Positions 6,452 to 56,670 of a stretch of DNA of 64,000 bases are shown piece by piece. The stretch's first letter is position 1; each line of letters begins with the position of its first letter. The notes below the pieces were generated by a model. It was not told the DNA's origin, did not search any database, and saw nothing but the letters and a program-made list of their open reading frames with translations. The stretch comes from a virus: positions 1 through 64,000 of IMG/VR virus record IMGVR_UViG_3300005519_000001; one strand, given 5' to 3'. A program made the translations under genes and the position numbers.

Positions 6452-7206
6452 CGGCCTGCCTTGCTGCATGCGGTGGCGGAGAGAAGCCGGCTGACACGGC
6501 GATCGTCAAAGCGATCGTTCCAGTGGCTGTTTTGCCAGCCTCGGCAGCATCGGAGGTGTCCGCGTCGCGGCCAGCATCGACGCCGATCGTCAATATCGAC
6601 GTCTACGGCGACGATGCGGCGATGGGTCTTTCGTCCTATGGCTTCGGCATTCCGGTCATCGTTAAACCAGCTTCAGCCAGCCTGCAAGACGCGCTGCAGA
6701 GGGAGTTCAACGATACCGGCATAACGGTCGCTAACCATGCGACTGGCGGGACGTCAGCGAGTCTGATGAACCTCCTCGACGGCATGGATGGCGGCGGTGC
6801 TCCGTTCGCTCAACGACTTGCGTCAACGCAATCGACGATAGTCGTGATTAGCTACGGCCTGAACGAGCAATACGGCGGCGAAACAGTCTTCGATTTCTCG
6901 GGCTACCTTGGGCAAGCCATTCAGACAGTGCGAGATGCAGGCAGAAGACCAATTCTTGAGACTCCGCCGCCAACGTGCGACAGCGATCATCCGTTCACGG
7001 CAAGCTACGCCGCTGCAATCAAAGCGGCCGGTGCGACCTACAACGTGCCGGTGGTCGATAACTACGCTGCGATTTCTGGTCTGGCCGATTGGCGGTCGCA
7101 CATGGATGCGATGTGCATATTGCCGGATGAGGCATTGCAGGCGTTTAAAGCTCAGCAGGAGTTGACAGTCATCGGACCAATCATTAAGGCCCAATTCGGC
7201 GAATAG
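6421..7206 (+). CDS. SGNH/GDSL hydrolase-like lipoprotein (5' end unresolved)
   Basis: The reading frame is secure to the stop at 7206, but no ATG, GTG or TTG lies where a lipoprotein should begin. The signal sequence is clear: LWRRG, a hydrophobic ALTACLA core, then lipobox LAAC before GGG. Upstream in-frame starts are an ATG at 6112 and a GTG near 6271. The mature domain has SGNH-like order: YGDDAAMG (block I, with Asp where GDSL enzymes have Ser), an ATGGTSA segment (block II) and ISYGLNEQ (block III). The family de-acylates glycans or lipids. With the next two genes it forms a likely surface-modification cassette. Confidence 0.65.
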   Translation, partial: LWRRGAIAALTACLAACGGGEKPADTAIVKAIVPVAVLPASAASEVSASRPASTPIVNIDVYGDDAAMGLSSYGFGIPVIVKPASASLQDALQREFNDTGITVANHATGGTSASLMNLLDGMDGGGAPFAQRLASTQSTIVVISYGLNEQYGGETVFDFSGYLGQAIQTVRDAGRRPILETPPPTCDSDHPFTASYAAAIKAAGATYNVPVVDNYAAISGLADWRSHMDAMCILPDEALQAFKAQQELTVIGPIIKAQFGE

Positions 7207-7306
7207 ACGCCTACTGCGCAAGCAAGTCGCAAGATCCGGCGCAATTCGCCCGAGTCCAGTTCTCAATTGCGCTATGATGCGCCCAAACAATTCAGGAATA
7301 AGGGCA

Positions 7307-8644
7307 ATGAATTCGCTGCGTCAATGGACAATTGCGTTTTTTTCCATCGTCATCATCGGCAGTTTTCTTTCAGCAATCATACCGCCGATGCAGTCGCCAG
7401 ATGAAAACGACCATATCAAGCGCGCATATCTGCTTTCTGTGCTATCGCCAACCGTAACAGAGCCGGGGCGCTCGACTGGCGGTTATTTCGACGACGCTTT
7501 GCAACAGTACCAGGTGCTGAACTTTCAGGCGCTTTCTACTAAGCCCAATGCCCGATTTGATGCGAAAACAGCAGAGGCTGGCGCAGCTATAAAATGGAGC
7601 GGCGCGCGGAGTTACGTGGATATGGCCGGCGCTGCGCCATATTTCCCGCTAGGCTACCTCCCACAAGCTGTGGGACTGCGGATTGGCGAATCTTTGCACA
7701 TGGGTGTGGGCGCATCTTATCGGCTTGCCCGCGCGACAACTCTGATTGCTGTCGCCGTTATCATCGCTTACGCATTCACGGTCTTCCCGCCGAACGCGCT
7801 GGTGATCTGCCTCCTAGCGCTGCCAATGACGATGTTCCAGTTATCGAGCGCTTCGGCGGATGGTATGTCGTTCGCATGGACAGTGCTGGCCGCTAGTCTG
7901 TTTCGACGCGGCTTGGAGCAAGACCAGCCGTTCCCGCTTCTGTGGTCCGTGCTGCTGATCGTCGCGCCGTTCATGATTGCCACGAGCCGGCCGCAACTGA
8001 TCGCGATCCTGATACTGGCGCCAGTGGTTTTCTTCGTCCGAAAAGACCGCCGCGCGCTGGCTGCCTCTATCATCGCGGCGTTGCTCGCTGTGGGGTGGGT
8101 GATGTATGGAGCGTCACATACCGTCGACCTGCGGTGGCCACGCTCGATTACGACCGGTCAGGCTGTCTCTTTCTACATTCATCGTCCCATCGAACTGATA
8201 GGAGTCATCTGGCGAACGCTGTCGAACCCGGCAGTCATCGATTCGTACTGGCGTCAGTTCGTCGGCGTCCTTGGTTGGCTCGATCGGCCCATGCCGCCCG
8301 CTACCTACATATTAGCGGGTGTTGGCTTGCTCATTGCATTGATGATCTCGTGCTCCCGCAGGGTGGGAGCGCTGGCTCGGACGGTGCCGTTATTGGTCGC
8401 CGCAGCCGCCGTAATGCTTACCCTCGTCGCGCTGCTTGTCACTTGGACGGATCTTCACGCCCAACTTATCATCGGTGTGCAAGGTCGATATTTCACCGCG
8501 CCGGCCATCCTCGCTGCTTATGCCCTAAGTGATGCAGAGCCCATGAAGCGGCGATCGTCGGTGACCATGATCGTTTGCGGCGTTTTTCTCGCATTCTCAA
8601 TGTCGATGACTGTGTCGACGCTGATCTGGAAATACTATTTGTAG
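7307..8644 (+). CDS. DUF2142 family polytopic membrane protein
   Basis: A 445-residue protein with about ten membrane spans. The N-terminal signature PPMQSPDENDHIKRAY is that of DUF2142 proteins, which resemble glycosyltransferase-C-type membrane enzymes and occur in O-antigen or capsule loci. The ATG at 7307 has AAGGG just upstream; an earlier ATG at 7274 has no such site. It lies between an SGNH-like lipoprotein and an acyltransferase on the strand opposite the late genes, typical of a serotype-conversion moron. Confidence 0.8.
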   Translation: MNSLRQWTIAFFSIVIIGSFLSAIIPPMQSPDENDHIKRAYLLSVLSPTVTEPGRSTGGYFDDALQQYQVLNFQALSTKPNARFDAKTAEAGAAIKWSGARSYVDMAGAAPYFPLGYLPQAVGLRIGESLHMGVGASYRLARATTLIAVAVIIAYAFTVFPPNALVICLLALPMTMFQLSSASADGMSFAWTVLAASLFRRGLEQDQPFPLLWSVLLIVAPFMIATSRPQLIAILILAPVVFFVRKDRRALAASIIAALLAVGWVMYGASHTVDLRWPRSITTGQAVSFYIHRPIELIGVIWRTLSNPAVIDSYWRQFVGVLGWLDRPMPPATYILAGVGLLIALMISCSRRVGALARTVPLLVAAAAVMLTLVALLVTWTDLHAQLIIGVQGRYFTAPAILAAYALSDAEPMKRRSSVTMIVCGVFLAFSMSMTVSTLIWKYYL

Positions 8645-22858: not shown

Positions 22859-22888
22859 CTCAATCCCTTTAACTGAGCCTTATGAGGT

Positions 22889-22940
22889 GCCACGGCAACC
22901 GGTAAGGTGCCGGCGTTCGGGTCGCGTCCCTAGCCGTGGC
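22889..22940 (-). other. three-way-junction RNA element after the tail tube gene
   Basis: Outer arms GCCACGGC and GCCGTGGC (8 bp, perfect) enclose two small hairpins: GGG/CCC around ACGCGA and CCGG/CCGG around CACCTTA. The element begins 8 nt after the tube stop codon and lacks a T-run. A similar element follows the major capsid gene. Confidence 0.55.
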
Positions 22941-27716: not shown

Positions 27717-27748
27717 GATATTCCCTGTTAGTTAGTCCCTGTAATGGT

Positions 27749-27804
27749 GCCCGCGGAAGCACGACAGGGGGCGTGCGTGTCAGTTGCGCAACCTATCCGC
27801 GGGC
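27749..27804 (-). other. three-way-junction RNA element after the major capsid gene
   Basis: Outer arms GCCCGCGG and CCGCGGGC (8 bp, perfect) enclose GTT-GCGC-AAC and GCACG/CGTGC hairpins. It begins 7 nt after the capsid stop codon and has no T-run. The layout is the same as that of the element after the tail tube gene. Confidence 0.6.
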
Positions 27805-55283: not shown

Positions 55284-55338
55284 CTCAGCCTCCTAGTACC
55301 CACCTTCAGTCTAGACGGCGATCCCTCTATCTGAGCAA

Positions 55339-55439
55339 ATCTTTATGATCTATTGAAGCTATGCAGGCGATAGAAATAATTGTTCGCTCCGAGCAAATCT
55401 TTTTGCGACATAGCGCTTGGCAAAGCAAATCAAATTGAT
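55339..55439. promoter_or_regulatory. second repressor operator region
   Basis: ATCTTTATGAT at 55339-55349 and ATCAAATTGAT at 55429-55439 match the ATC-N5-GAT dyad near cI. A third, weaker copy follows GCAAATC at 55392. Each is preceded by GCAA, giving three GCAAATC motifs on the + strand. Confidence 0.7.
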
Positions 55440-55446
55440 CTATGAT
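55417..55446 (+). promoter_or_regulatory. rightward early promoter
   Basis: -35 TTGGCA (55417-55422), 18-nt spacer, -10 TATGAT (55441-55446). The operator at 55429-55439 lies in the spacer, so the repressor would block it directly. Confidence 0.75.
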
Positions 55447-55492: not shown

Positions 55493-55699
55493 ATGAGCCC
55501 GAACAACCTTAATGCATTCCGCGCGATTGACGAAGTCTTCGACGGAACTTTCATGTTGACGTTTGGCGGCCCGCTCGACGCACCGGAGATGATTCCGAAC
55601 GGCTCGATGGTCGCGCATGAATGCCACACGATCCTCGCCGGTTCAGCACTTCGCTTGGGCGCGCACAACAAACCGTGCATATCGTTCCAGGTGCGCTAA
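55493..55699 (+). CDS. first small protein of the rightward operon
   Basis: A 68-residue protein from the ATG at 55493, with GGAGAAGGGG upstream. It has AIDEVFDGTFMLTFGGPLDA and two His/Cys residues near the end. It holds the position of lambda N, but does not look arginine-rich. The hammerhead ribozyme begins 2 nt after its stop. Confidence 0.65.
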   Translation: MSPNNLNAFRAIDEVFDGTFMLTFGGPLDAPEMIPNGSMVAHECHTILAGSALRLGAHNKPCISFQVR

Positions 55700-55701
55700 C
55701 A

Positions 55702-55751
55702 GGTCGAAACCGCTTCGGCGGTCTGAGCGTAAGGCGCTCACTGACGAGACC
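55702..55751 (+). ncRNA. type II hammerhead ribozyme
   Basis: All core nucleotides are present in type II order. Stem II is GGTC (55702-55705) with GACC (55748-55751). Core GAA (55706-55708). Stem III is ACCGC (55709-55713), TTCG loop, GCGGT (55718-55722). Cleavage nucleotide is C55723. Stem I is TGAGCG (55724-55729), TAAGG loop, CGCTCA (55735-55740). Core CTGACGA is at 55741-55747. It would cut the + strand transcript just after C55723. Confidence 0.85.
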
Positions 55752-56355
55752 GTGAATTACCCGCAGTAGAAGCACCCGCCCCGGCAGAGCCGGATCGCGG
55801 AACGCACATTAACAATCGAAGTTTGCGGCCTCCCTCGGGACTCGCCGCACGGTCTGATCTAGTCGACCGATACGCAGCACAGACCAACCGCGCTAGGCCG
55901 ATGTATGGCTACCGGATAGAAGTCTGATTGAAGGCTGCGAGACGATCAAAACCACGCGGCAGCTGGAGCCGGCTAGGCCGGGAGTTGTCAGCGTCGCGTG
56001 GATAGCAGTTCTCAGTGTTGGCGGTTGGTAACACGCATAGACCATCGAGCCTTGCGAACCCCGCGTGTCTGGCGAATCCGGCGCGGGCGGCGGAAGAAGA
56101 TGAACTAGCTAGGCCCAGCCGCCAACACTGAGAACTGCAAGCGTTTTTAGTGGAAGGGTAGCGCAGTGGTGATGCGCGCTGAAGTGCACAGGTGGTGCGG
56201 GCGGCGATGTAGTCGTAACCGTTCCAAGCCGGAAATTCACCCCCGGCGCCTTCCCCTAAAGACGTTTCGAGTCCCCTAGCCGCGGCCGATTCGCTGAGTC
56301 GGCGGCGGTTAGCGGGCTCTTGAGAGATTAGGACAACTACTCGCTGGAGACATTC
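55752..56355 (+). ncRNA. structured gene-free tract after the hammerhead (possible ncRNA)
   Basis: I see no supported ORF. Hairpins include CCGGC-AGA-GCCGG (55781-55793), TGCGGC...GCCGCA with an inner TCC-CTCG-GGA (55824-55849) and CGGTC...GACCG (55850-55869). A 20-bp inverted repeat spans 56005-56138. It lies downstream of an early promoter and before a zinc-ribbon gene. A processed ncRNA or long leader is inferred. Confidence 0.5.
56005..56138. repeat. 20-bp perfect inverted repeat
   Basis: Arms at 56005-56024 and 56119-56138 are exact reverse complements, separated by 94 nt. The right arm is followed by GCGTTTTTAG, which could act as a weak terminator. Confidence 0.85.
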
Positions 56356-56670
56356 ATGAGCGAAAAATCGGCCATCAGATGCGAGACGCCGCGTTGCATC
56401 AACGACATAGCGAAGTACGGCCCGCAATACCACATGGTCTACGACCGCAAGGAAGGCCAGTGCTGTGAGCGTTGCGGTGGAAAGTTCGACGGGGCCGCAT
56501 GGCGCCATGCCTGCAAGCACTGTGAAACCGAAGTGCAACCCGGCGAGCTTGTTGGCCTGTTCGTGCCGCACTCGTGCAAGGCGTGTCACGAGAAAGTTGT
56601 CGCCGACCAAGTCAAACGCGGCGCGGTCTGCGGTGGATGCAAATCGGCCTTCGCACTTTGTTGCTGCTAG
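56356..56670 (+). CDS. Cys-rich zinc-ribbon protein
   Basis: A 104-residue protein with many CxxC motifs (CERCGG, CKHCET, CKACHE, CGGCKS) and a C-terminal CCC. GGAGA precedes the ATG. It probably binds several zinc ions. The function is unknown. Confidence 0.75.
   Translation: MSEKSAIRCETPRCINDIAKYGPQYHMVYDRKEGQCCERCGGKFDGAAWRHACKHCETEVQPGELVGLFVPHSCKACHEKVVADQVKRGAVCGGCKSAFALCCC

Follow-up and report, generated by a model that had tools for sequence, protein, structure and literature searches.

The window, by which we mean the whole 64,000-nt stretch of viral DNA that was analyzed, contains a rightward early operon that starts in an operator-like region (55330-55446, plus strand) adjoining a CI-type repressor gene. 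An 18-nt sequence is repeated in this region, starting at 55330 and again at 55388, and a putative promoter is predicted by consensus, with a -35-like TTGGCA (55417-55422) and a -10-like TATGAT (55441-55446). The first gene of the operon (55493-55699, plus strand) encodes 68 aa from an ATG at 55493, within a longer open reading frame (ORF) that extends from 55442. It was ruled out as a known regulator, since it belongs to no PHROG or Pfam family and has no relative in the phage collection. A hammerhead ribozyme and a long structured tract follow, then an ORF of 104 aa with no known family (56356-56670, plus strand). Since the operon runs on to RecE-like recombination genes, it corresponds to the PL arm of lambda. 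The first-pass annotation had placed the ribozyme in the lysis-lysogeny circuit, which holds for the operator-like start beside a CI-type repressor gene but needs amending for the rest, the operon being the PL arm and the Cro-like and O-like genes lying in the leftward operon. Elsewhere in the window, two int-alpA RNAs score above the Rfam cut-off (22877-22940 and 27737-27803, minus strand), 5 kb apart.

The type II hammerhead and its position at gene boundaries

The hammerhead occupies 55702-55751 on the plus strand and can be read directly. Stem II (4 bp), in which GGUC (55702-55705) pairs with GACC (55748-55751), is open and encloses, in order, the GAA core (55706-55708), stem III (5 bp; ACCGC 55709-55713, UUCG loop 55714-55717, GCGGU 55718-55722), the cleavage nucleotide C55723, stem I (6 bp; UGAGCG 55724-55729, UAAGG loop 55730-55734, CGCUCA 55735-55740) and the CUGACGA core (55741-55747). 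Everything that defines type II is present: the CUGANGA core, GAA, the A-U closing pair of stem III, an H at position 17 and, in both the reading and the fold, loop-closed stems I and III with an open stem II. Cleavage is predicted between C55723 and U55724. Every base, including the core, the A-U pair and C55723, lies where the first-pass annotation had placed it, and so does the ribozyme as a whole, 2 nt behind the operon's first gene, whose TAA is at 55697-55699. When the hammerhead RNA is folded in isolation, the predicted fold is exactly the structure that was read, while a competing CGGUC/GACCG pairing shows up in a 656-nt fold. Because the UUCG hairpin of stem III, followed by stem I, would form earliest during transcription, the hammerhead is probably favored over this competitor. 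As for a tertiary contact of loop I with the stem II side, the UAAGG of loop I agrees with the common pentaloop. A GUAA/UUAC pairing to the 3' tail appears possible by eye; it is not conserved in L030, a locus described below.

This structure is not readily produced by chance. The window hammerhead scores 15.3 in a scanner that requires three helices together with the core and GAAA. Simulated DNA with matched dinucleotide statistics (20 sequences of 840 kb, both strands, 33.6 Mb) yielded 20 matches in total, none approaching this score, the maximum being 8.8. Scanning viral contigs with the pattern GGTCGAAA-N25-55-CTGAYGAGACC returned at least 120 matches. We built a covariance model, R2, from 40 of these phage hammerheads, leaving out the window and all copies linked to the leader RNA M1 (see below). 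In this alignment 98.7% of cells are paired and the covariation score is 0.754, versus 0.149 when shuffled, and R2 recognizes the window hammerhead with 65.1 bits (E 1.2e-13). Among six related hammerheads, compensatory double changes are found at 6/6 pairs of stem I and 1/4 pairs of stem II; stem III is invariant among these six, but covaries in the 40 of R2. The first-pass annotation had suggested a search with the Rfam type II model. Rfam at curated thresholds has no match at the hammerhead site, and its Hammerhead_II model in particular (RF02276, gathering score 37 bits) is silent on it, whereas R2 matches. We attribute this silence to the narrowness of RF02276, since eight other phage records with clear hammerheads all stayed below its cut-off as well. 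At E ≤ 5, the sole Rfam match on the hammerhead stretch is RAGATH-16 (RF03047; 21.2 bits, E 0.37, sub-threshold), which we rejected as the true identity because this score is one third of its 65.6-bit cut-off and the hammerhead accounts for the core.

The phage and prophage type II hammerheads of Perreault et al. (2011; PMC3088659) share with the window hammerhead the circular order, the core, the intergenic place in phage genomes and an architecture in which stems I and III are hairpins and stem II is open. They precede a gene, however, while that of the window precedes a boxA-like structured leader. The closest tested relative, of the same class, is found by R2 in Bcep176 (NC_007497, 12168-12237), where it, too, lies 2 nt behind a stop codon. 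In contrast to the intact core of the window, the Bcep176 ribozyme has a CTGCTGA core, which matches the A6C variant of Perreault et al. that was measured at <0.1 per min (PMC3088659), and a longer stem III hairpin. Cleavage both in vitro and in Escherichia coli has been observed for other phage or prophage hammerheads (PMC3088659). The window ribozyme is thus an additional case of a known class, confirmed as far as sequence allows, and by kinship it is likely to cleave itself.

The distance to the upstream gene follows a rule. After removal of duplicates, 114 type II hammerheads with flanking sequence remained among the matches listed. In 92 of these listed copies an ORF ends just upstream, its stop codon lying -1 to 12 nt from the hammerhead start, versus 5.8% at random positions in the same contigs, and the commonest spacing is exactly 2 nt (30 of the 114 listed), as in the window. 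Downstream, a ribosome-binding site (RBS) and start codon lie within 60 nt of 82/114 listed hammerheads, versus 14% for random positions. Since the sampling pattern fixes stem II as GGTC/GACC, the rule is demonstrated for that majority type. With a stop codon upstream and an RBS and start codon downstream, phage hammerheads would divide polycistronic RNA between genes, in line with the proposal of Perreault et al. for prophages (PMC3088659); the stop-codon spacing rule, which we did not find in the text of that paper, is new here.

The boxA-led leader RNA M1

The "600-nt structured tract" of the first-pass annotation is confirmed, with a predicted folding energy of -301.7 kcal/mol for 55700-56355 (z -8.0). 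No tRNA or tmRNA was found in it. Behind the hammerhead, the tract contains a boxA-like site, GCACATTAACAA (55804-55815, plus strand, as are all elements that follow). This copy, CACATTAACAA, has two mismatches to CTCTTTAACAA over the 11 positions from 55805. Behind it come a hairpin, TGCGGC/GCCGCA (55824-55849), identified by direct reading and in an alignment of 18 leaders, and a core RNA of five helices (55850-55940), supported by pair counts and by a covariance model, R1 (89.6 bits). Site, hairpin and five-helix core constitute M1. The remainder of the tract comprises a hairpin CCACGCGG/CGCGTGG (55952-56001; direct reading), of a kind that also comes after M1 in relatives, there with a different sequence; a long hairpin with 24-nt arms that are 96% complementary (56005-56138), with a GCAGTT/AACTGC base and an interior that varies in relatives; a module, M2, of two hairpins within a closing stem (56142-56264); and a last hairpin (56277-56313), also present in L002. 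The loops of M2 can pair with each other, GGTGA (56168-56172) with TCACC (56237-56241), and the relatives have GCTGA/TCAGC, a compensation noted by eye. M2 is also found in L006, L009, L018, L043, L047 and L052, and has moved to other places in other phages.

M1 behaves as a conserved RNA. In 17 aligned sequences, 97% of cells are paired and double changes occur at 11/20 pairs, with a covariation score of 0.432 versus 0.145 for shuffled alignments and at most 0.074 for all slid controls. Neither the tract nor its relatives match an Rfam family at gathering scores, giving sub-threshold matches only, and M1 appears to be a covarying RNA family not described before, absent from Rfam 15. In 29/40 M1 loci the boxA departs from CTCTTTAACAA at no more than one position, versus 0.013% in shuffles; the published E. 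coli boxA consensus is GYTCTTTAANA (PMC5725501). Across loci, therefore, boxA stands at a fixed place before the M1 structure, as expected of an antitermination leader, with the window copy having two mismatches. Similarly, lambda nut and ribosomal RNA boxA sites provide a boxA-like sequence that opens long operons, and that of the window lies close to the promoter within an early operon. M1 differs from them in having a conserved multi-helix RNA behind boxA. The HK022 put RNA (PMC9378689) is, like M1, a structured phage RNA early in the early operon; this likeness is one of functional analogy only, and one M1 copy was seen per phage. As its boxA suggests, M1 may have a role in antitermination, for which put and lambda nut are analogies.

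Pieces of the tract recur across many phages, frequently combined in other ways. M1 is present in Burkholderia phages Magia and BgManors32, and in 21/398 genomes of a bacterial family sample centered on the genome of L052. A Blast search of the tract also led to Shewanella phage vB_Sb_QDWS, in which a matching 131-nt block without annotation (75% identity) lies after the repressor gene and one more gene. The entry for this phage (OK094664) and "Hujiaoplasma phage zrk29-1" (OP650936) have the same length, 47902, and the same matches; a single genome has probably been deposited twice, under different hosts. Up to 55800 L002 shows no difference from the window; it then diverges, and is identical again at 56269-56312. 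When 55797-56312 is compared with L002, L003 and L009, matches start and stop at module borders, and the order is reversed in L009. M1 scores are only weak and partial in Bcep176 and in the region behind the boxA of L114. When bacterial genomes were scanned with a pattern of the M1 core, most matches were due to chance; among those inspected, only L052 and L079 seemed real.

Promoter or hammerhead before M1

Upstream of most M1 copies lies either a promoter or a hammerhead. We compared 41 distinct M1 loci. In 27 a sigma70-like promoter directly precedes M1 and a hammerhead is absent, while six have a hammerhead without such a promoter (the window, L015, L030, L037, L042 and L098). The remaining eight have neither by our cut-off. 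This mutual exclusion has a Fisher p of 6.7e-4, which overstates independence since the M1 loci are related, and the promoter score cut-off was chosen after the data had been seen. Within the group of eight, L033, L093, L099 and L103 have weaker promoter-like sites, and L102 looks like a false match inside a gene. L016, L043 and L052 are real exceptions, with neither element directly upstream, indicating that some M1 copies do without a 5' end provided close by. In L043 and L052 we considered M2 as another ribozyme in the hammerhead slot, and saw nothing that speaks for or against this. In L016, the flanks at about 7180-7320 resemble those of L042/L098 before boxA and M1; no hammerhead was found there, and its place may be taken by a different structure or a degraded copy.

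The distance from hammerhead to boxA lies in a limited range. In the promoter loci the predicted start is ~40 nt before boxA (median 41), and in seven loci the end of the hammerhead is 33-58 nt from boxA (53 in the window). L227, in a bacterial genome, has the same hammerhead tail and, 54 nt after the hammerhead, a boxA-like site, together with a different leader; L002 also has a hammerhead before a different leader. In L037 an exact boxA lies 40 nt after the hammerhead, and the M1 core is 296 nt downstream. A second kind of hammerhead was seen 1-3 kb downstream of M1, before an ordinary gene, in L099 (2728-2799), L140 (2340-2411) and L230 (1501-1572).

Comparison with L003/L004 is instructive. 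They match the window in the promoter region (80% identity), which in them lies directly before M1, and in M1 itself (86%), but the two matches are 78 nt apart in L003/L004 and 369 nt apart in the window. Relative to L003/L004, the window therefore carries the first gene and the hammerhead as an insertion, which makes a natural pair: promoter and M1 are shared, while the gene and the hammerhead are present on one side only. These figures come from local matches, a global alignment of the window to L003-L005 across the insertion having been uninformative. L030 has an unrelated first gene, yet a 2-nt gap, hammerhead, boxA and M1 as in the window. In L015, another gene lies between promoter and hammerhead, 24 nt and a hairpin separating it from the latter, and in L042/L098 it is an antisense ORF that lies between promoter and hammerhead. 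The first-pass annotation had looked to related phages for loss of the core. Relatives that have a hammerhead keep its core, except Bcep176 (A6C), whereas most relatives are without the whole element, because the leader there starts at the promoter.

A possible role for cleavage

The reading that we favor, and hold to be fairly probable, is that an active hammerhead frees the mRNA of the first gene and gives the M1 leader a fresh 5' end. The early rightward transcript would be cut after C55723. The 5' product would be the mRNA of the first gene, with its stop codon and a tail of 24 nt, which would include the UUCG hairpin and carry a terminal 2',3'-cyclic phosphate, while the 3' product would begin with a 5'-OH and the stem I hairpin, followed by the boxA-like M1 leader and the recombination genes. 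Cleavage would thus separate the fates of the two RNAs and place a 5' end 81 nt before boxA, 28 nt of which would be hammerhead remnant. In the window and several other loci, where a gene has come between promoter and leader, the hammerhead would thereby restore a nearby 5' end. M1 would most likely modify the elongating polymerase in cis, via boxA and Nus factors. The first-pass annotation had suggested RNA processing by a hammerhead that separates the small gene from the structured tract, and comparison with some 40 M1 loci and 114 phage hammerheads supports this predicted processing. Points against the favored reading, or against a strict need of M1 for the cut, are the three exceptional loci, the relatedness of the loci, the two mismatches in the window boxA, the different leaders behind the hammerheads of L002 and L227, the competing pairing in the long fold and the ordinary genes found after most phage hammerheads. 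A broader version, in which M1, mostly in Burkholderia-type phages, acts in cis and needs a near 5' end that comes from a promoter or, once a gene has been inserted ahead of M1, from a hammerhead replacing it, is possible though doubtful.

A plainer explanation, unlikely in our estimation but to be taken seriously, is that the hammerhead simply splits off the mRNA of the first gene and that M1 is downstream incidentally. Ordinary genes follow the hammerhead in most phages, which leaves no need to assign M1 a special part; the architecture and 2-nt spacing are the same in those hammerheads, and L225 has a very similar copy followed directly by an RBS and ATG. What this explanation would not predict is the mutual exclusion of promoter and hammerhead before M1, or the limited range of distances from hammerhead to boxA.

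The abutting stop codon raises another possibility, that cleavage reports whether the first gene is translated. A terminating ribosome covers roughly a dozen nucleotides downstream. One terminating 2 nt before the ribozyme would therefore cover GGUCGAA and block folding, and the stop codon is within 12 nt in 92/114 listed hammerheads. The tight packing of phage genes accounts equally well for this spacing, though, and the 24 nt and hairpin that intervene in L015 do not fit such a switch, which we regard as improbable. Least probable of all is that the element has no role, being a chance match or a relic that has lost activity, as might be suggested by the slow, core-altered relative in Bcep176 (<0.1 per min; PMC3088659), since the window core is intact, simulated sequences yield nothing close and the helices covary in relatives.

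Returning to the favored reading, in which the cut both releases the first mRNA and provides the M1 leader with its 5' end, the boxA-led leader RNA and the exclusion between hammerhead and adjacent promoter before M1 are, like the spacing rule, new here. The role of bacterial and phage hammerheads has been termed an open question (PMC6155905). The position rule and the promoter-or-hammerhead pattern make this role accessible to simple tests, and the pairing of hammerhead and M1 suggests what phage hammerheads may be for.
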